Positions 11,002 to 40,131 of a DNA stretch of 40,131 nucleotides are shown here, piece after piece. The notes under the pieces were generated by a model that saw nothing but the letters and a program-made list of their open reading frames with translations, did not search any database and was not told the DNA's origin. Origin of the DNA: a virus; the IMG/VR virus record IMGVR_UViG_3300010430_000176, positions 1 to 40,131 of that record; one strand, given 5' to 3'. A program made the translations under genes and the position numbers. The number at the start of each line of letters is the position of its first letter. Positions within the stretch are counted from its first letter, which is position 1.

Positions 11002-11894
11002 TAATATAACCTCATCAACATTGTCTCAAACTTATGGAACTCATCCAAGTATTCTCTGAATCCCATTTGTTTACAGAATGTATAGATATTATCAGCTTCA
11101 GGGTATTCGTAATTTTCGTAGGTTTTCATGATTCTTCCTTTGATGGTCTGAGGTATTCTTTGGAAGTCTATCAAGTTGCGGTTTATCTTATATCGTTCTT
11201 CTAAGCCCATTCGCTTTAACCAGAACATGTACCCTTCCTTCATGACCTTCTCACATTTGGCAGGTCCAAATCCTGGTCTTCTTTTCCCCTCAGTTTCCTC
11301 AGTTAATCCCCAATCAAGAGGGGTAATTATATTCAGTATATCATCTTTGCCCTGTCCTGTCAATGACTTCCTAACAATAAAATCTTCAGCATCATCAACA
11401 GATACTTCTTGCATTTTTTGAGGATTGTATACCACAACATTTGGTCTGTTACTCAACTGTAAAAAATCTTCATCATTACTTATTATATGATATTTATCCT
11501 CTCCATGTAAAGCAAGCACTCCAATAATATCGTCAGCTTCAGCATTTTTTACATGAAGGACTTTAAATGGAATGTTATCTTTTATGTCTTGAATAAGATT
11601 ACTCAGGTTGGAATAGAAGAGATTCCAATCTACTGTAGATTTGTCTCTCTTCGTTTTTCTTGATTCCTTATATCTTTTGAAATAGAGTTTCCTCCAAGAT
11701 ACCCTATCATCAACGGCAAGGATTATTTCTTGTACATTCGCAACACGAAATAGTGCTTTATAGATTGCATCGAATGTCCGATATCTCCAGAGTGGGAATT
11801 CCGGTTGAGGAGTGTGAGCACCAATATCTTTAACAAAGAATGTTCTTGCTGCTAGGTTATTAAAATCAAATAGTAAAACTGTTCTTTTCAACAT
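11001..11894 (-). CDS. 5'-3' exonuclease, FEN/T4 RNase H-like (297 aa)
   Basis: Removes RNA primers and 5' flaps during lagging-strand maturation. Acidic metal-binding residues are visible in LLFDFNNLA (near residue 10), AVDDRVSWR (near 65), HVKNAEADDIIGVL (near 125) and ISNDEDFLQL (near 145), the four conserved blocks of the PIN/FEN fold. A Lys/Arg-rich clamp (FKRYKESRKTKRDK) and a helix-hairpin-helix-like RRPGFGPAKCEKV (about 208-220) follow. Length agrees with T4 Rnh (305 aa). ATG at 11894 has AGGA seven bases upstream; a GTG directly precedes it. Confidence 0.85.
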   Translation of the reverse strand: MLKRTVLLFDFNNLAARTFFVKDIGAHTPQPEFPLWRYRTFDAIYKALFRVANVQEIILAVDDRVSWRKLYFKRYKESRKTKRDKSTVDWNLFYSNLSNLIQDIKDNIPFKVLHVKNAEADDIIGVLALHGEDKYHIISNDEDFLQLSNRPNVVVYNPQKMQEVSVDDAEDFIVRKSLTGQGKDDILNIITPLDWGLTEETEGKRRPGFGPAKCEKVMKEGYMFWLKRMGLEERYKINRNLIDFQRIPQTIKGRIMKTYENYEYPEADNIYTFCKQMGFREYLDEFHKFETMLMRLY

Positions 11895-11916
11895 CACAAT
11901 TTCCTTTCACATCATT

Positions 11917-12027
11917 TTAAAATAAATAATATATACTAGAAACAGGTATATAAGTTAGTATACCCACTAGCTTAACTTCTATGAATGCAGTAAACATCAC
12001 AAAAGCTAAAAGTAGACCTTTTTTCAT
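11917..12027 (-). CDS. Hydrophobic microprotein (36 aa)
   Basis: ATG at 12027 overlaps the upstream stop by one base (TAATG) and has a GGGGGGAGAGG ribosome site. The product starts MKKGLLLAFVMF and is almost entirely hydrophobic, one membrane span. Function unknown. A/T-rich sequence continues after the stop for about 20 bases to the exonuclease gene. Confidence 0.5.
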   Translation of the reverse strand: MKKGLLLAFVMFTAFIEVKLVGILTYIPVSSIYYLF

Positions 12028-12356
12028 TATCCTCTCCCCCCTTTAACCCTTCTTATATATTCTTTTCCTTGCTCATCTGTGAATCTAATAAAGAAGGGAC
12101 TGTTGTAACGTGTCTTCTGCATATACTGCTGTGCGTTTGAACCACTTTGGAAACGGAGTCTCTTTCTACCGTACTCCATGTTTTGCCAGAAGTCTTTGTG
12201 CTCTACATCAAAGACAGGGAAACCTTCTTTCTCAGCATGTGCCTGAACGTCTTCAACATCGGTTTCAATTCCTCCTTCTGGTTCGTGTACAGCTACGTCC
12301 TGTTGTGCTATCTGTTCTGGTCCATGACCGTCATCAGCACCCATCATTTCTCCCAT
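12027..12356 (-). CDS. Hypothetical protein with acidic N-terminus (109 aa)
   Basis: Residues 1-45 are disordered and acidic with Gly, His and Gln; residues 48-109 form a compact Arg/aromatic-rich domain (FWQNMEYGRKRLRF, SPFFIRF). Not recognised. Could be a replication accessory or head protein; context gives no decision. Confidence 0.65.
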   Translation of the reverse strand: MGEMMGADDGHGPEQIAQQDVAVHEPEGGIETDVEDVQAHAEKEGFPVFDVEHKDFWQNMEYGRKRLRFQSGSNAQQYMQKTRYNSPFFIRFTDEQGKEYIRRVKGGRG

Positions 12357-12368
12357 GATATTTTCCTC

Positions 12369-12635
12369 CTACACTATTTTATTAATTATATCTACTGTTG
12401 CTCTGTCATCCCTAGTGAAAGCCCCTCTCATTAGTCTATACTTAACTCTCATTTCTGGGTCCATATCTAGGAAATGCTTAACTAACAATGGTCTAATCAT
12501 TTGTCTTGCTTTCCTCATAAAAGCTTTATATTCTTTTGATGTTGATTCTCCTACCTTCTCTTTTTTGATTGTATCAAGTAAATAGATTAAAACGATGTCT
12601 GACCATTGCTCTGAATTTACATTAATTTTTGGCAT
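12369..12635 (-). CDS. Hypothetical helical protein (88 aa)
   Basis: Predicted mostly helical, basic in the middle (KAFMRKARQMIRPLLVKHF), no Cys. The start shares one base with the stop of the nuclease gene, indicating coupling to it. Function unknown. Confidence 0.65.
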   Translation of the reverse strand: MPKINVNSEQWSDIVLIYLLDTIKKEKVGESTSKEYKAFMRKARQMIRPLLVKHFLDMDPEMRVKYRLMRGAFTRDDRATVDIINKIV

Positions 12636-13173: not shown

Positions 13174-13329
13174 TTATTTATCTTCTTGTTCTTCTTTTTC
13201 TCGTAGTTCTTTCTCACTCCAATCACCACCACACATAGGACAGAAAAAATAATCCCCTACATATCCAGGTGACATGACATGAATAATTTTCTTGCATATA
13301 GGGCAAGCAACTGCATTTCTACTAATCAT
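13174..13329 (-). CDS. Zinc-ribbon microprotein (51 aa)
   Basis: The 51-codon frame from ATG 13329 gives a product with CPIC and CPMCGG pairs 17 residues apart and a Glu/Lys-rich C-terminal tail. A typical zinc knuckle. It lies between the gp32-like gene terminators and the nuclease gene, so it is probably the first gene of the next transcript. Function unknown. Confidence 0.65.
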   Translation of the reverse strand: MISRNAVACPICKKIIHVMSPGYVGDYFFCPMCGGDWSEKELREKEEQEDK

Positions 13330-13356
13330 AACTTAACCTCATCATTTATTTCAAAT

Positions 13357-13403
13357 AAAAAAGACCTATTCAATATGTATTTATATATATTGAAGGGTCT
13401 TTT
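13357..13403 (-). terminator. Bidirectional intrinsic terminator
   Basis: Long hairpin: arms AAAAGACC/GGTCTTTT with a second stacked arm TTCAATAT/ATATTGAA around an A/T loop. On the minus strand it ends in TCTTTTTTATTT. It follows the gp32-like gene and would stop read-through into the zinc-ribbon and nuclease genes. Confidence 0.7.
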
Positions 13404-13433
13404 CTAAAAAAAGCAGGTGTTGTTATTTTATTA

Positions 13434-13453
13434 GGGGAGGGTTGCCCCTCCCC
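13434..13453 (-). terminator. G+C-rich hairpin after gp32-like gene
   Basis: Perfect 8-bp stem GGGGAGGG/CCCTCCCC with a four-base loop, 22 bases after the gp32 stop. On the minus strand it is followed by TAATAAAATAA rather than a clean U-run, so it may slow RNA decay as well as terminate. A weaker hairpin (GCCT/AGGC) lies at 13456-13469. Confidence 0.6.
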
Positions 13454-13474
13454 ATGCCTACACACAGGCACAGA

Positions 13475-14443
13475 TTATAAATCTTCTAATTCAGCTAAGA
13501 GGTCTTCATCTGACTCTTCCTCTGCTGGTACTTCAGCATCCTTAGTAGGTTTCTCTTCCTTCTGTTCCTTTTGTTCAGGTTCATCTGTAGGAAGGTCTAG
13601 TTCTTTTTCATCTTCAACCTTTTCAGCTTCTTTTGCAAGACCTTTCATTCTCTTCCACTCAGTTGCAACCATCTCCCAAACCATTTCAGCATTGAGAATA
13701 TTTTTAATATCTTCATCTGTCCTAGTAAGGTCTGCAACATAATCTACTAAGTCATATGTGCTATTCATGATTTGTTTGATTTGTCTATCAGTTCCTAATG
13801 CTTGTGGTGTTCTTGAGAACATAGAATCACTATAATCGGGCCAAGTTCTACCTTCCTTATCCTTCTTGGTGGATTTAACTTTTAGAATAAAGTTGTATCC
13901 ATCATCACTAGGATTAAAGATATTGAAACCATATCCCTCTTTCGTATCAGTGATTTCTGATTTGAGTTTAGATTCTACTCTACCAGGAAATTCATAGAGT
14001 TTCACAGTGTTCTCAATTCGTTCATCTTTTTCTCGTTCAGCATCTCTTGGGTCATGTACAACGAAAAAGTTGCCAACAAATTTTTCTTTCCTCTTGTAAT
14101 TTTGCGCTTGCTTCTTGTCCTCCGAACCACCCATAAAAAGCTTTTGTGTTACAGAGCACCAAGCACACCAGTTTTCAAAGTTGTCTGTCTTGGGGCATTT
14201 GATAAATTGCCATTGCTCACCACTCATAAACATGTGGTAATAGATTCTTTTATAGAACTCTCCTTTGAGGTCTGGTATGAATCTACCTTCATAATTCTTA
14301 GACTTCTCTGTAGTTCCCCTTTCAGGAGTTGGAAATAATTTCTCCATTCTGGCAGAACCACCTTTTTGTTTTTCTTGTTCAGCTTCTTTTGTCTTTTGCT
14401 GTGCAAACTTGCCGAACAATTCTTTGTCAATCCATTTACTCAT
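13475..14443 (-). CDS. 32: Single-stranded DNA-binding protein, T4 gp32-like (322 aa)
   Basis: Coats single-stranded DNA in replication and recombination and organises helicase loading. The zinc ligands H70, C83, C93 and C96 have the same spacing (13, 10, 3) as H64, C77, C87, C90 of T4 gp32. The basic N-terminal region (residues 1-35) would give cooperativity, and the C-terminus (about 270-322) is the acidic tail that binds partner proteins. It has its own sigma70-like promoter (14534-14562) and is followed by two hairpins, so it is a monocistronic, highly expressed unit, as in T4. Confidence 0.9.
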   Translation of the reverse strand: MSKWIDKELFGKFAQQKTKEAEQEKQKGGSARMEKLFPTPERGTTEKSKNYEGRFIPDLKGEFYKRIYYHMFMSGEQWQFIKCPKTDNFENWCAWCSVTQKLFMGGSEDKKQAQNYKRKEKFVGNFFVVHDPRDAEREKDERIENTVKLYEFPGRVESKLKSEITDTKEGYGFNIFNPSDDGYNFILKVKSTKKDKEGRTWPDYSDSMFSRTPQALGTDRQIKQIMNSTYDLVDYVADLTRTDEDIKNILNAEMVWEMVATEWKRMKGLAKEAEKVEDEKELDLPTDEPEQKEQKEEKPTKDAEVPAEEESDEDLLAELEDL

Positions 14444-20839: not shown

Positions 20840-21720
20840 TATTCTGCTCCTCTCACAACTGTTTTTTGTGCGAATCGGTTAATTCTCTTTTGGAACTTCT
20901 TATCCCACCTGTGACCATCCTTCTTCATGTCTGCCTTGACATCATCAACTAACTCTCTCATAACATCACCGATTTGATGTTTCTTATATCCAGGAAACTT
21001 GCTTAATGCAGACTCCACTCTGTTATCATTGATGTACTCATCAACTACAGTATAGTCTGTATCATCAGGTGCTCTTTCTTTTTTCTGACCTCTTACCTTC
21101 TCATCGAACTTTGGATGCTTTACCTTGAAGACGAAACGAGTTTCATCAGTGAGCATTGGCATAGAAATACATTTCACTACAAATCCCTCAAGTACATTAT
21201 CCTTTTTGGGATTGAGCGCAGTGAGTGGGTCATGTGATAGACGTTCTAGTACAAAGTTTAGAATGTCATCATATGAAGAAGGCGCAATTGGTGTAAACCA
21301 AATCGGAGTATAGTCGAATCCTTCTTCTTGTTTATGAATTCTTATATAGCCTTCTCCATCAGAGTAATCAAAAATATAGAGTTTCTTTTCATCTCCATAG
21401 TCAACACCCTTTTGAATTTTTGGTCCGGTAATTTCACCATAAACAAACTTTAAACCTGGATTGAGCTTGAATAATAATTCCCAATCATATGTCTTCAGGA
21501 CGGTTTGGTATCCTGCTGGAAGTTGATTACCATTTCTGGTAAAGAATGCTGGACCTTCCTTGTACATATTGGAAATACATACATTAGAACCATGCAGCTT
21601 TTCAGTGACATACCAATGATGTAAATCACTCCTATCAAAATGAGGAGCATACTTCTCCATAATTTTTTCAAGATTCCAGTAGTTCTCAAGCGAATTGTAT
21701 CTCACAAATTTGTTTGTCAT
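20839..21720 (-). CDS. RNA ligase 2 family (T4 Rnl2/gp24.1-like, 293 aa)
   Basis: ATP-dependent ligase that seals 3'-OH/5'-PO4 nicks in double-stranded RNA, a phage counter to host RNA cleavage. Nucleotidyltransferase motif I is K41-L-H-G (VTEKLHGSNV), motif III FVYGEITG (91-98), motif IV E177-G-F-V-V-K, and motif V K198-V-K200. A helical C-terminal region (about 230-293) follows. No polynucleotide kinase-phosphatase is in the window, so partners must be elsewhere or absent. Confidence 0.85.
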   Translation of the reverse strand: MTNKFVRYNSLENYWNLEKIMEKYAPHFDRSDLHHWYVTEKLHGSNVCISNMYKEGPAFFTRNGNQLPAGYQTVLKTYDWELLFKLNPGLKFVYGEITGPKIQKGVDYGDEKKLYIFDYSDGEGYIRIHKQEEGFDYTPIWFTPIAPSSYDDILNFVLERLSHDPLTALNPKKDNVLEGFVVKCISMPMLTDETRFVFKVKHPKFDEKVRGQKKERAPDDTDYTVVDEYINDNRVESALSKFPGYKKHQIGDVMRELVDDVKADMKKDGHRWDKKFQKRINRFAQKTVVRGAE

Positions 21721-22037
21721 AGTAACCTCTTTCTGATATATTCTCTATAGTTAGTTAAACTCCTATCCATTTCCTCTAGATATTCATATCTTGTTTTTTC
21801 GAATTTTCCAAGAACACCTATCTTTGCTGCCAGTTTGAAACAATGTTTACACCATCTCTCTTTCTGTTTATATGTATATGTCTCATCATGTATATCATGG
21901 AACTTGGCACACTTGACGCATGTATCCCTACGACAAATGTAGCATTGATTTACTATAGTTTTATCACCCTCATCACCGCAGAAGTCACAAGAGTAATGAT
22001 AAACTATATGTTCTCTTACAGTTTCATGTCTTGCCAT
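21717..22037 (-). CDS. Multi-zinc-finger protein (106 aa)
   Basis: Four Cys pairs: CDFC (17-20), CYIC (32-35), CVKC (40-43) and CKHC (63-66) plus His residues between, resembling a cross-brace RING/FYVE or B-box-like zinc fold. C-terminal 40 residues are basic helical. ATGA overlap with RNA ligase. Probable nucleic-acid or protein binding; a related but shorter protein is at 24429. Confidence 0.7.
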   Translation of the reverse strand: MARHETVREHIVYHYSCDFCGDEGDKTIVNQCYICRRDTCVKCAKFHDIHDETYTYKQKERWCKHCFKLAAKIGVLGKFEKTRYEYLEEMDRSLTNYREYIRKRLL

Positions 22038-23623: not shown

Positions 23624-23862
23624 TCTTTTATATGTTTTTTCCATTTCTTCTTTTCTTTTTCATTTAGCCATTCAGGTGGGCTAGTAGTATTTATATTCAG
23701 GTCTTGAATTTTCTTCATTATTTCTGTATAGTTTTCTTGTTGTATTTGAATAAAACGATATCGCACAAGTCTTCCTGCTAGATAAAGTAATGATGCTATT
23801 ACATACAAAATCCAATGAAGCTTGAATCCGTAGATTATAATAAATGCTAATATAAGTGTCAT
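23614..23862 (-). CDS. Small membrane protein (82 aa)
   Basis: Two hydrophobic spans in residues 1-35 (LILAFIIIYGF; WILYVIASLLYLAG) then a basic cytoplasmic tail with KKIQD, EKEKKKWKKH. Its ATG is inside a repeated junction module (see 23862-24471). Function unknown. Confidence 0.65.
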   Translation of the reverse strand: MTLILAFIIIYGFKLHWILYVIASLLYLAGRLVRYRFIQIQQENYTEIMKKIQDLNINTTSPPEWLNEKEKKKWKKHIKDLH

Positions 23863-24266
23863 TAGTCTTCCTCCATTCCTATTCTTTGTAAATATGACTG
23901 TTCTGGGTCTACTTCTCTTACTTCTTCTCTACCGTAGCTTTCTGCTGCTTGCTCCCTAGGTAAAAAACCATTCCTTTCTCGCCTTCTGTTTCTTATTTCA
24001 TTTATTTCATTTACACTATCCCCAACAAATTCCATAACCCATCCTGCAAACCACCATAAAAACCATATTATTAGACTTAGAAAAAAACAACCAAGTGCAA
24101 TTGCAACTGTAAAACAAAGACCAGTTAGTACAGCAGGACAAGACTCACAATTTTGAACTGCAAAATCTAATTGAGCAGCAAGTATACCCATGAAATAAAA
24201 AAAGTAATAAATCACCACAGGTAATGTTGGTATTAAAAAGATTCTAAGTGCTTTCTTCTTCGACAT
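23862..24266 (-). CDS. Membrane protein ending SYLQRIGMEED (134 aa)
   Basis: Two or three membrane spans (residues 8-35, 46-85) with a Cys-x-x-Cys (NCESC) in the loop between them, and a polar C-terminus. The last eleven residues resemble those of the next two upstream genes. The start overlaps the preceding gene by 23 bases. Unknown. Confidence 0.65.
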   Translation of the reverse strand: MSKKKALRIFLIPTLPVVIYYFFYFMGILAAQLDFAVQNCESCPAVLTGLCFTVAIALGCFFLSLIIWFLWWFAGWVMEFVGDSVNEINEIRNRRRERNGFLPREQAAESYGREEVREVDPEQSYLQRIGMEED

Positions 24267-24429
24267 TTTCCAGTCCTATTCTCTGTAGATATGTTTCCTC
24301 TGGGTTCGGGTCTGAATTTTTATATTCTCTAATACTCTTTGTCATTAAATATATTATATGTATACATTGGAAAAGGGCAGAAGCACACATAGCACTAATA
24401 ATACTAACTATTATGATTTGCAACCACAT
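24244..24429 (-). CDS. Membrane microprotein ending YLQRIGLE (61 aa)
   Basis: One membrane span at the N-terminus (MWLQIIIVSIISAMC) and a short polar tail with DPNPEETYLQRIGLE. The ATG at 24429 lies in the TAATG overlap of the upstream stop and is preferred over an open extension to 24471. Unknown. Confidence 0.65.
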   Translation of the reverse strand: MWLQIIIVSIISAMCASALFQCIHIIYLMTKSIREYKNSDPNPEETYLQRIGLENVEEEST

Positions 24430-24764
24430 TAGTCTTCTTCCACTCCTATTCTTTCCACATCCCTTACCCACATAGATGTTCTATGATGATTGTACCATAG
24501 AACATCTTTGCCAGTCTTCTTGTTGACAATACCTACACCGTCATCATAGTCAAAATAATGTTCCTTAGCACATTCCTTACAGAGTTGACCATCTTCACAT
24601 GCTTCACCTGTGCATGAGATGCAAACATCCTTCCCACATAAATCACATTTATTTATAGCACCACCTGTACACCAACTTCCTTCTCTAAGTTCAACATAAT
24701 ATCTGCAAAAGTCACATTTAATGAAAAAAACTTTTTTCATAATCCGTTTAGAATATCGTGCCAT
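24429..24764 (-). CDS. Zinc-finger protein (111 aa)
   Basis: Cys pairs CDFC (17-20), CDLC (40-43), CISC (48-51) and CKEC (62-65): a four-pair cross-brace zinc fold like the protein at 21717, with which it shares the C-D-F-C start. Ends VERIGVEED. No ribosome-site choice needed as the first ATG follows GAGAGAAGGG. Probably binds nucleic acid or protein. Confidence 0.65.
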   Translation of the reverse strand: MARYSKRIMKKVFFIKCDFCRYYVELREGSWCTGGAINKCDLCGKDVCISCTGEACEDGQLCKECAKEHYFDYDDGVGIVNKKTGKDVLWYNHHRTSMWVRDVERIGVEED

Positions 24765-24801
24765 AATACCCTTCTCTCTATAAAAAATTTTAATCTCTTA
24801 G

Positions 24802-24830
24802 TTGACAATCCCAAAATAGTGTGCTAGAAT
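24802..24830 (+). promoter_or_regulatory. Plus-strand sigma70 promoter
   Basis: TTGACA, 17-bp spacer, TAGAAT on the plus strand, inside a 112-base gap without a gene (24765-24876). It would transcribe antisense to the small genes 24877-25254. Confidence 0.5.
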
Positions 24831-24876
24831 GGGGTTACTTCTCCAGCAAATTATACATAACTACATGGCCCGAACT

Positions 24877-25032
24877 TTACTTTGTAGCTAACCAACATCT
24901 AATACCTAAGATAATCTTATCTACTATTCCATACACTACTATGGTAGCAAATATAGCTATTATAAAATCCCATGATAGTATGGTGTTCCATACTGATATC
25001 TTATCATATTCATCTTGTGGTGGGTATGTCAT
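24877..25032 (-). CDS. Membrane microprotein (51 aa)
   Basis: ATG 25032 with GGGAGGAG ribosome site; 51 codons. One central membrane span (ILSWDFIIAIFATIVVYGIV) and a polar N-terminus. Unknown. Overlaps the upstream small gene. Confidence 0.6.
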   Translation of the reverse strand: MTYPPQDEYDKISVWNTILSWDFIIAIFATIVVYGIVDKIILGIRCWLATK

Positions 25033-33184: not shown

Positions 33185-33412
33185 CTATTTTCCTATTACA
33201 AAGGACATACTAAGGGCAATTAACCACACTTCCCACATTGCAATATCACCAGTTCTAGAAAAGTATTCTTTAATAGCTTCCCATGGGAATGGTAATCCTC
33301 TTACTGCTCCCATAAAAAGAGTACCAATGAGAGCAACAAACAGAATAAAAATAATAACTAGTGTGCCTACTTTAAGACCTAGCTTTGTATATCTCTTTTC
33401 CATCTCACCCAT
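33185..33412 (-). CDS. Membrane protein (75 aa)
   Basis: ATG 33412 preferred for a GGGGA ribosome site; two spans (LVIIFILFVALIGTLFMG, WEVWLIALSMSFVI). Overlaps the ligase stop by eight bases. Unknown. Confidence 0.6.
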   Translation of the reverse strand: MGEMEKRYTKLGLKVGTLVIIFILFVALIGTLFMGAVRGLPFPWEAIKEYFSRTGDIAMWEVWLIALSMSFVIGK

Positions 33413-35249
33413 TGCACATCCCCTGTAATTGATTGAAGTCAATTATCTCTGTTCCATATTGTTCTGCTTTCTTATTTTTACTGGACCCAGAATTTGGATT
33501 ATCTGTTACTAAGTAATTAGTCTTCTTAGTAACTGAGTTCTTCCAAGTTCCACCCTTACTTTCAATCATTCGAACCAGTGCATCTCTTTTCATCGGTAAC
33601 TTTCCGGTGATACAAAGGATTTTACCATCAAGTACACCAGTAGCTCTTTCTTCTAATTTGAGACCTAAATATTCAAGTTCTTCAAGTGTTTCATTACAGG
33701 TATATTGATTACCTCTGATATAGCTTCCTACAGTTATACCAATCCCCTCAACTTCTGTTAGCTCTTTGTAGGATGCATTAAGTACATTATGGATAGACCC
33801 AAATTGTCTAATCAAATCAGCAGCAACAGTGTTACCCACATTTGGAATAGCAAATGCAGCAAGAAGTTTTTCATGGGTAGTATTCATAGTACCCTGGATT
33901 TCATCATATATTTGGGTAGCTCTTCTTTCCCCAAAACCTTCAATTCTCATGAGTTCATTAATACTTAAATCATAGATTTGAAAAATATCAGGTGGTTTTG
34001 AATTATCAATATGGTCACCTAGTTTTTTGAGAGAGACAGCAGTTATGTTTTCAGCACCTAGGGTTCTGAACCAATATTCCAATTCATAGTAAACCTTCTC
34101 TGGGCATTGTTTATTGGTACAAACTATATCTACACCTAACCGATGTGATTCACTATAACAAGAAGGACAAGAATGATATCGACCTAAATTATCGGATGCA
34201 GTATACACTTCTTCGATATATGGGATAACATCACCAGACCTTACAATACCTACCTCTGCACCAATCCCTGCTCCCATTTTAGAAAGCAGTTCAAAATTGT
34301 GTCCGGTGACTCTACTAACTGTTACACCTTGAATCCCAATAGGTCTGATAATTACAACAGGAACTATACGTCCTGTTCTGGTCACACTCCATTCAATATC
34401 TTCAACAGTTGTTTTAACTGCATCTAGATTTACCTTGAATGCAATTTTAAATGTTGGGTATAATACATCTTCCCTATCTGATTTGTTGAGAGTGATTACA
34501 AGACCATCAACGTCATATCTATCATGTTCTCTTGCTGATTGTAGCAGTGCTACTAATCTATCTTCTGTTTCTCCATCAACAAAAGGACCGTTTAATGTCC
34601 ACCACATAGGATTGTTTTGAGTACCCCATAACTCTTCAATAATTTCCCATCTTCTTTCTTCTGTCCATTCGTTAGGAACACTCTCCATATTAAGGTCATC
34701 AGGTGCTTCAACAATCTCGTAGAAGTATGCTTTGAGATGTTGACAGTTCTCAGTACCGTCTTTGTTTAGAAGACCACTAGCACCATTTCTTCTGTTCTTA
34801 TATCCAAAATCAGCAGGGTCTTTGTTGAGTACAGCTTCACCACGAAACACCCATCTACCAGAGGAATATATTTCAGGACAGAAGAGTTTGACCTTATCTG
34901 TAATGTCTGTGCCTAGCTCACCATCTCCTCTTCGATATCCTGCAATGGGTTTACCGTCTTCATAGATAACTAGGAAACTGGCACCATCTACCTTTTCAGA
35001 TACAATGAAGTTCTTACCTGTTTTCTTGAGCCAATCAAGAACGGTATCAATCTTCATCTTGTCAAGCGAACCCATGATATAAGGTAATTTAACTTTTTCA
35101 CCAGCAACACCAACAGTCTCAAAATATGGGTCTTCAGGAAAAAGTTCTTTAGCTTCTTCCCTCATCATATCATAATCGGTATCTGATATTTCGGGTTGAC
35201 CATCAGCATATTTTTTGTCATGAAGTTTAAGAAGGTCTATGATATTCAT
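33405..35249 (-). CDS. ligA: NAD+-dependent DNA ligase (614 aa)
   Basis: Seals 3'-OH/5'-PO4 nicks in DNA, including Okazaki fragments, using NAD+. Adenylation lysine K86 in SEKVDGAS; RRGDGELGTD and FRGEAVL motifs follow. A Cys-x2-Cys ... Cys-x4-Cys zinc region (about 365-390), helix-hairpin-helix repeats (EGFGERRATQIYD; EGIGITVGSYI) and a C-terminal BRCT domain (about 540-614, LCITGKLPMKRD) are in the canonical order. ATG 35249 is taken because it forms ATGA with the upstream stop and AAGGAG lies nine bases upstream. Replaces the ATP-dependent gp30 ligase of T4. Confidence 0.92.
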   Translation of the reverse strand: MNIIDLLKLHDKKYADGQPEISDTDYDMMREEAKELFPEDPYFETVGVAGEKVKLPYIMGSLDKMKIDTVLDWLKKTGKNFIVSEKVDGASFLVIYEDGKPIAGYRRGDGELGTDITDKVKLFCPEIYSSGRWVFRGEAVLNKDPADFGYKNRRNGASGLLNKDGTENCQHLKAYFYEIVEAPDDLNMESVPNEWTEERRWEIIEELWGTQNNPMWWTLNGPFVDGETEDRLVALLQSAREHDRYDVDGLVITLNKSDREDVLYPTFKIAFKVNLDAVKTTVEDIEWSVTRTGRIVPVVIIRPIGIQGVTVSRVTGHNFELLSKMGAGIGAEVGIVRSGDVIPYIEEVYTASDNLGRYHSCPSCYSESHRLGVDIVCTNKQCPEKVYYELEYWFRTLGAENITAVSLKKLGDHIDNSKPPDIFQIYDLSINELMRIEGFGERRATQIYDEIQGTMNTTHEKLLAAFAIPNVGNTVAADLIRQFGSIHNVLNASYKELTEVEGIGITVGSYIRGNQYTCNETLEELEYLGLKLEERATGVLDGKILCITGKLPMKRDALVRMIESKGGTWKNSVTKKTNYLVTDNPNSGSSKNKKAEQYGTEIIDFNQLQGMCNG

Positions 35250-35551
35250 TTCTTCCATCTCCTTATGTAGACTTGACCCTTCAGAAATAGATATGCATAA
35301 CCATCCTTACCGTACATTAAATTGGTTAAACTATGTCCATCAACACCAATAGGGATAGCTTTAACTACTAGCCTAGACCCACCAGCAATTTCTTGATACC
35401 AGTTAGTCACTACTGCTTTAGGGTCATTGTGGTCTTTTGCTACCCTACCAAACGTAGTATACTTGATACCACCACTGTCTTTTTCCCAAAGATTAGGAGG
35501 AAGAGTCACAACTTTTTTGGTTCTTCTCCATCTCAGTCCATCAAAAATCAT
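35246..35551 (-). CDS. Hypothetical protein (101 aa)
   Basis: ATG 35551 follows GGGAG and shares TAATG with the preceding stop. Beta-rich small protein (IKYTTFGRVAKD, LVVKAIPIGVDG, GYAYLFLKGQVY). Unrecognised; the upstream in-frame ATG lies inside the previous gene. Confidence 0.6.
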   Translation of the reverse strand: MIFDGLRWRRTKKVVTLPPNLWEKDSGGIKYTTFGRVAKDHNDPKAVVTNWYQEIAGGSRLVVKAIPIGVDGHSLTNLMYGKDGYAYLFLKGQVYIRRWKK

Positions 35552-38012: not shown

Positions 38013-38041
38013 AGTATAACATAGAAAAATGTATTTGTAAA
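38013..38041 (-). promoter_or_regulatory. Promoter A (duplicated block)
   Basis: Minus-strand TTTACA, 17-bp spacer, TATACT. The segment 38029-38059 is identical to 39821-39851. The -35 lies inside an imperfect inverted repeat, TGTAAAC-CCT-GTTTGCA, a possible operator. Confidence 0.8.
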
Positions 38042-38071
38042 CCCTGTTTGCAAATATTTATTCATTTATTT

Positions 38072-39427: not shown

Positions 39428-39766
39428 CTACGGTTTGTCGTATTTGTTTCTATCTAAGGTTTTATGCTTATCATTCACACTGTTGAGCCACACAGTTCTC
39501 ACTGAAGCATCTCTACTCAACACCAGAATCAAATCGAAATCATCATTATACTTGGTACGATACACAATCTTTACCACCTGACGATTTATCACTTCAACCT
39601 CAATAGCCTTAGCAGTATCAGTGTTGATAGTCCTTGGAAGGTCTATCCTACCGTATCTATCGGTCTCTGCTGCATTTAGAGCATGTCTTTTGTAAGTAAC
39701 CTCAATCACACCGAATTTCGTTATCAAACCTTTTGGAAACCCAATTTCAAAGTGGTAAAGACTCAT
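39428..39766 (-). CDS. Hypothetical protein (112 aa)
   Basis: First gene after promoter B. Beta-rich (VIEVTYKRHAL, VVKIVYRTKY) with a basic end. Unknown; overlaps nothing and follows a 90-base gap to its promoter. Confidence 0.65.
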   Translation of the reverse strand: MSLYHFEIGFPKGLITKFGVIEVTYKRHALNAAETDRYGRIDLPRTINTDTAKAIEVEVINRQVVKIVYRTKYNDDFDLILVLSRDASVRTVWLNSVNDKHKTLDRNKYDKP

Positions 39767-39804: not shown

Positions 39805-39833
39805 ATTATACCATAGGCATATGTATTTGTAAA
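39805..39833 (-). promoter_or_regulatory. Promoter B (duplicated block)
   Basis: Minus-strand TTTACA, 17-bp spacer, TATAAT, a near-consensus promoter. Its upstream part 39821-39851 is identical to Promoter A. Starts the 39766-38464 operon. Confidence 0.85.
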
Positions 39834-39855
39834 CCCTGTTTGCAAATATTTCGAT

Positions 39856-40131
39856 AAAAAAATGAAAAAAGGCATTATCCAGTATGGTGGTTACTTTGTG
39901 CGGTTTCTACGAAGAAGTTGCACCTTTCGGTTTCGTAGTCCATACATTCCATCCTGCCATACCCACCTGCAACCATTCCAGTGGTGGATAATGCCCTGTT
40001 AAATTCCTAGACACCGTGACTGGTTGCGCTTACCCCATTTGGAGTCCAGTCACGATGCCCTCTCCCTTTTTAGCCACTCTGAATTTTCCAACCCAGGAGA
40101 GGAGGTATCAGAGTTATGGCTTTTATAGCTA
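39856..40131 (-). ncRNA. Structured noncoding RNA, 3' part, ending in intrinsic terminator
   Basis: No ORF. Read on the minus strand from 40131 down: hairpin C (AGCCA + CTCTGA, 40072-40082 with 40108-40121), whose loop CTCTCC can pair with GGAGAG at 40060-40065 to make a pseudoknot; hairpin B, a 9-bp perfect stem CGTGACTGG/CCAGTCACG (40015-40023 with 40046-40054) with an inner 5-bp ACTCC/GGGGT; and domain A closed by an 11-bp perfect stem GGCATTATCCA/TGGATAATGCC (39871-39881 with 39985-39995). Inside A are GTATGG/CCATAC, CTACGAA/TTCGTAG, an ACC-GAAA-GGT GNRA-loop hairpin and a possible GTTGCA/TGCAAC pseudoknot. Domain A is followed by TTTTTT then TTTTTTT, so its closing stem doubles as terminator. 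The RNA starts outside the window. Confidence 0.75.

Follow-up and report, generated by a model that had tools for sequence, protein, structure and literature searches.

The stretch of DNA considered here, which we call the window, is a 40,131-bp virus fragment (IMGVR_UViG_3300010430_000176), the source of which, to judge from its genes, is an uncultured, divergent T4-like phage: the T4-like set includes a T4 gp32-like single-strand binding protein, a primase, a class II ribonucleotide reductase, an Rnl2-like RNA ligase, an exonuclease and an NAD-dependent ligase. Among sequenced phages, no close relative was found (the best matches to core proteins are c. 25–31% identical), and relatives at roughly 40–60% protein identity were present in IMG/VR (L141/G001; L142/G002, of 127 kb; L176/G004; and L242/G010). 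Positions 39856–40131, which end exactly at the right edge of the contig, had been described from the letters alone as 276 bases devoid of a reading frame, and we found the longest stop-to-stop frame lying inside them to be 46 codons at most, with a single 61-codon frame overlapping them in part only. The features of this end of the window are listed below; RNA positions are numbered along the minus strand from r1 = 40131, so that window position = 40132 − r.

40072–40121 (r11–60), minus strand: P1 hairpin, AGCC..ACTCTGA pairing with TCAGAGT..GGCT, 25-nt loop
40059–40102, minus strand: possible 7-bp pseudoknot between CCTCTCC in the P1 loop (40096–40102) and GGAGAGG in the P1/P2 joiner (40059–40065)
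40009–40060, minus strand: P2 long hairpin, 9-bp perfect core CGTGACTGG/CCAGTCACG, 15 pairs including G–U
39968–40027, minus strand: possible 7-bp loop–loop contact between GCAACCA (40021–40027) and TGGTTGC (39969–39975)
39869–39997, minus strand: P3, a 129-nt domain with an 11-bp perfect closing stem GGCATTATCCA/TGGATAATGCC (r137–147 with r251–261)
39925–39928 (r204–207), minus strand: GAAA (GNRA) tetraloop in arm P3b, closed by ACC/GGT
39856–39870 (r262–276), minus strand: T6-CA-T7 tail directly 3' of the closing stem, resembling an intrinsic terminator
39825–39847, minus strand: imperfect 23-bp palindrome ATTTGTAAACCCTGTTTGCAAAT, overlapping the −35 element of the promoter in the next line
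39805–39833, minus strand: extended −10 promoter TTTACA-17-TATAAT for the next genes, starting 22 nt past the second T-tract
39428–39766, minus strand: first gene past the RNA (phrog_24108), a conserved phage protein without assigned function
33405–35258, minus strand: NAD-dependent DNA ligase, the synteny anchor, upstream of which relatives carry tRNA/tmRNA arrays

The minus strand of the 276-nt region folds with a minimum free energy of −95.1 kcal/mol (z = −4.75), a value equalled by none of 200 shuffled sequences. Perfect Watson–Crick stems are correspondingly over-represented, with two of at least 9 bp against 0.089 expected (p 0.002) and six of at least 7 bp against 1.44 expected (p 0.003), and the GC content is 45%, compared with 36% for the whole window. 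We take the minus strand of 39856–40131 to encode a real, strongly folded non-coding RNA without recognised relatives; about 265 nt of it are visible, and it may begin on the far side of the contig edge. The position of the region exactly at that edge lends some substance to a different idea, that the folding reflects a DNA element (a site for packaging, replication or recombination) or an artefact of assembly at the end of the contig, and it is true that structured or repeated DNA is where assemblies often stop. The strand bias speaks against a DNA element, since the plus strand folds clearly less well (z −2.81), while it is the minus strand, to which the preliminary description had also assigned the structure, that gains 10 G–U pairs and carries the GNRA loop and the T-tract. 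Moreover, T4-like phages package DNA by a headful mechanism and have no cos site. A DNA element or artefact therefore seems to us distinctly improbable.

Along the minus strand, the domains follow in the order P1 (r11–60), P2 (r72–123), P3 (r135–263) and then T6-CA-T7. The three long stems noticed in the preliminary description are all present: that of P1 has 11 bp in two pieces (AGCC/GGCT and ACTCTGA/TCAGAGT), that of P2 is built on its perfect core, with an apical stem and an asymmetric AAGCGCAA loop in addition, and that of P3 encloses a three-way junction with two arms, P3a and P3b, the second of them bearing the expected GNRA tetraloop. Two possible pseudoknots had also been suggested. 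The first, the pairing of the P1 loop with the joiner, is plausible (shuffle p 0.014, uncorrected for the choice of segments). The second contact proved to have two competing, mutually exclusive partners for the P3a loop: the P2 loop (7 bp; p 0.002, uncorrected for segment choice, and with three of the bases already paired in P2) and a bulge in P3b (GTTGCA, 39968–39973, with TGCAAC, 39917–39922; 6 bp; p 0.01, likewise uncorrected).

The last stem runs, as had been claimed, into two T-tracts, and the tail of r262–276 supports the view that the RNA is ended by its own closing stem. Because this end is followed within 22 nt by a new promoter, the RNA unit would finish before the next transcription unit, which is probably regulated: a second copy of the ATTTGTAAACCCTGTTTGCAAAT palindrome, near 38033–38055, also overlaps the −35 element of an extended −10 promoter, and the two copies with their promoters (39805–39848 and 38013–38056) are likely to form an operator/promoter pair of this phage. 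A 19-mer from the operator had no match in viral contigs. Beyond phrog_24108 lie genes for a SprT-like metalloprotease and small proteins of unassigned function. Relatives of phrog_24108 do occur in viral contigs (L129, with 53% identity, and others), and were set aside as non-syntenic and unaccompanied by the RNA.

The RNA lies at the contig break, 4.6 kb upstream of the ligase gene, and members of the clade, found by searching with the window and G010 ligases (in genome contigs, the ligase search gave cellular ligases only), show what occupies this position elsewhere. In the same orientation as the ligase and upstream of it are 14 tRNA genes in L334 (the same phage as G010; ARAGORN), twelve in L344, eight with a tmRNA in L340, three with a tmRNA in L339, three with a tmRNA, immediately before the ligase, in L338, and two in L350. 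From the distance and these arrays, it seems most likely that the contig breaks at or just before a tRNA array, and the RNA is probably the last member of an array of tRNAs and small RNAs that was cut off from the fragment. The synteny has a single anchor, the ligase, as the relatives lack homologues of the window genes that separate it from the RNA. Counting against an array are the relatives L336, L337 and L341, in which the flank is present and no tRNA gene lies upstream of the ligase; the failure of ARAGORN to find a tRNA gene anywhere in the window; and the lack of a homologue of the RNA in any relative.

The arrays of the relatives contain more than tRNAs. Genes for tmRNAs in the lineage lie at L338 1742–2089, L339 5697–6054, L340 2164–2565 and L334 19613–19982, the last being elsewhere in its genome and not, as in the other three, upstream of the ligase; the tag peptides are ADDYNYAVAA (L338), AEDNFALAA (L339) and ADDYNYEYAMAA (L334). 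Four unclassified folded RNAs are interspersed with the tRNA genes of L323 (the same phage as in L334) at 541–737, 741–870, 872–970 and 1965–2105, the first of them having a long acceptor-like stem and a canonical T arm at its end, which recalls T4 rnaC. Gene-free stretches in two further arrays, a closed folded RNA of about 200 nt at about L344 6305–6500 and a folded stretch of about 600 nt at about L340 3250–3840, gave no above-threshold Rfam match, and just upstream of the L340 tmRNA (1826–2015) are two odd tRNA-like RNAs, the first a sub-threshold match to tRNA-Sec.

Among these array RNAs, one invites comparison with P3. L334 4202–4329, here termed Y and one of the four unclassified RNAs of L323/L334, is a 128-nt closed-stem RNA without an Rfam name, followed by a U-run; like P3, it is a domain of about 128 nt with a long closing stem and an AACA 5' flank. 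It lies in the array upstream of the same ligase, where P3 too would have its place, and it differs in sharing no sequence with P3. When about 16 related sequences were scanned with a structural descriptor, P3 (129 nt) and Y alone were short, strongly folded and U-tailed with a long closing stem. Single-sequence covariance models were made from P3 (R1) and from P1–P2 (R2), and run with filters on and off; neither, at either setting, gave anything convincing in the relatives. With filters off, R1 aligned to Y over its full length, but with an E value no better than 0.34, and P3 is not recovered by R3, the reverse model built from Y; the likeness is one of architecture only. More generally, no convincing homologue of the RNA emerged when contigs of related phages and public collections were searched with Blastn, nhmmer and covariance models; plasmids gave no match to it, and genome contigs none to a 22-nt loop pattern. 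Several short matches were discarded: the exact 14-mer GGGCATTATCCACC has at least 119 matches in viral contigs, none of those listed having the partner strand; a 24-nt match to P1 in L142 and L143 (E about 1e-4) is antisense within their ribonucleotide reductase gene, and is due to chance; and the one match among phages, of 42 nt, falls in a gene for a replication initiator in ‘bajarodmic virus 506’ and is spurious.

These comparisons bear on whether the locus specifies an RNA with a role of its own. The three hairpins might be no more than 3' processing and termination signals, as in a leader or terminator processed by RNases, and a T-tract after the last stem with a new promoter at once beyond it is what such signals would look like; arrays of other relatives do end in plain terminator hairpins followed by promoters (for example, L344 7675–7935). 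P3, however, is a branched domain of 129 nt, unlike a short terminator hairpin, and in the descriptor scan its combination of short span, long closing stem and strong folding recurred only in Y. We therefore regard signals without a functional RNA as unlikely, though by no means negligible.

Known RNA classes offered no home for the sequence. An Rfam search of the region gave no family match, the sub-threshold matches (to eukaryotic lncRNA, snoRNA or SECIS entries only) being noise, and neither ARAGORN nor Rfam found a tRNA or tmRNA in it, even in permissive searches. That it might nevertheless be a tRNA-like RNA, degenerate or of unusual form, or a piece of a tmRNA with the remainder off the contig, is suggested by the tmRNAs and odd T-arm-bearing RNAs of the relatives (such as L323 541–737), and by the T-arm-like hairpin in which T4 rnaC ends. 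The region has no T arm and no CCA end, though the 5' half of a tRNA or tmRNA could lie beyond the contig edge; with the negative searches, this makes a tRNA-like identity rather improbable.

The preliminary description also compared the region with GOLLD and ROOL, though it could match neither; these are phage RNAs of unknown function that are reported to be ‘often near tRNA islands’ (PMC12286853). As an intuition about habitat this was good, since the relatives have a tRNA/tmRNA array here; all three RNAs, moreover, are phage-encoded and ornate. Membership did not hold: there is no Rfam similarity, the GOLLD and ROOL covariance models gave no match either at gathering thresholds or at E<=5, with truncated matches allowed, and the conserved core of neither was found in the RNA. 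Many GOLLD members exceed 800 nt, far more than the c. 265 nt visible here, and neither family is present in the relatives' arrays. We consider it very improbable indeed that this is a diverged member of either.

A closer parallel in position is provided by T4 itself, the tRNA cluster of which has at its 3' end rnaD (119 nt) and rnaC (139 nt). The products, RNAC and RNAD (stable RNA species 1 and 2), arise by late transcription, and no function is known for them (PMC9697503, PMC3014915). They are near P3 in size, likewise lack an Rfam family, and occupy a place in a T4-type cluster approximating to that proposed here for the window RNA; they differ in that R1 does not match them and that P3 has no counterpart of the T-arm-like 3' hairpin of rnaC. 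The window RNA is best filed as an orphan among the structured RNAs of phage tRNA arrays.

On balance, we lean slightly towards the view that the minus strand encodes a non-coding RNA that is stable, or else two to three such RNAs cut from a single transcript, and that this locus forms the 3' end of an array of phage tRNAs and small RNAs, the tRNA part of which would lie beyond the contig edge. In favour of this view are the fold z-score of −4.75, the stem statistics, the strand bias, the T-tract and the lack of any coding, Rfam or tRNA match, as well as the same-orientation arrays of relatives, the unclassified folded RNAs within them and the rnaD/rnaC end of the T4 cluster. A transcript from the array would enter from the right and fold into three parts, P1 (which may be pseudoknotted), P2 and the P3 domain, whose closing stem, with U6, would stop transcription and protect the 3' end. 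A terminator with a loop of more than 100 nt is unusual, and this counts against the view. The separate, regulated promoter would then restart transcription for the genes downstream, and host RNases might trim the product, as they do tRNAs, to an RNA of about 265 nt or to separate P1, P2 and P3 pieces. We infer a trans-acting part for it in the course of infection, like that of T4 RNAC and RNAD, binding to a protein or to the translation machinery being the likeliest mode.

Stable RNAs without assigned function have long been recognised in phage tRNA arrays (T4 RNAC and RNAD, GOLLD, ROOL), and a further orphan, in a lineage whose arrays hold a phage tmRNA and several unclassified RNAs, suggests that they are common, and underannotated, there. 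More speculatively, and with rather low confidence, the visible 265 nt could belong to a new RNA class of phages, large and pseudoknotted, that has its seat in the tRNA/tmRNA arrays of this uncultured T4-like lineage. The window would then show only the 3' part of the RNA, and such arrays would hold a repertoire of fast-changing structured RNAs acting on translation during infection. The window RNA and the array loci listed above are a concrete starting set for a family, once close relatives have been sequenced.

Finally, we draw attention to three observations elsewhere in these genomes. Downstream of the gp32-like gene, window positions 13312–13494 are non-coding and strongly folded (z about −5 to −6, on both strands), and include a long terminator-like hairpin. 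In L142, about 1.2 kb (11293–12497; G002 23796–25000) apparently interrupts the ribonucleotide reductase gene, an intron, an intein or a homing-endonuclease insertion being the candidates. The 236-kb relative L339 has a group I intron (Rfam RF00028, 58 bits) at 21556–21798.
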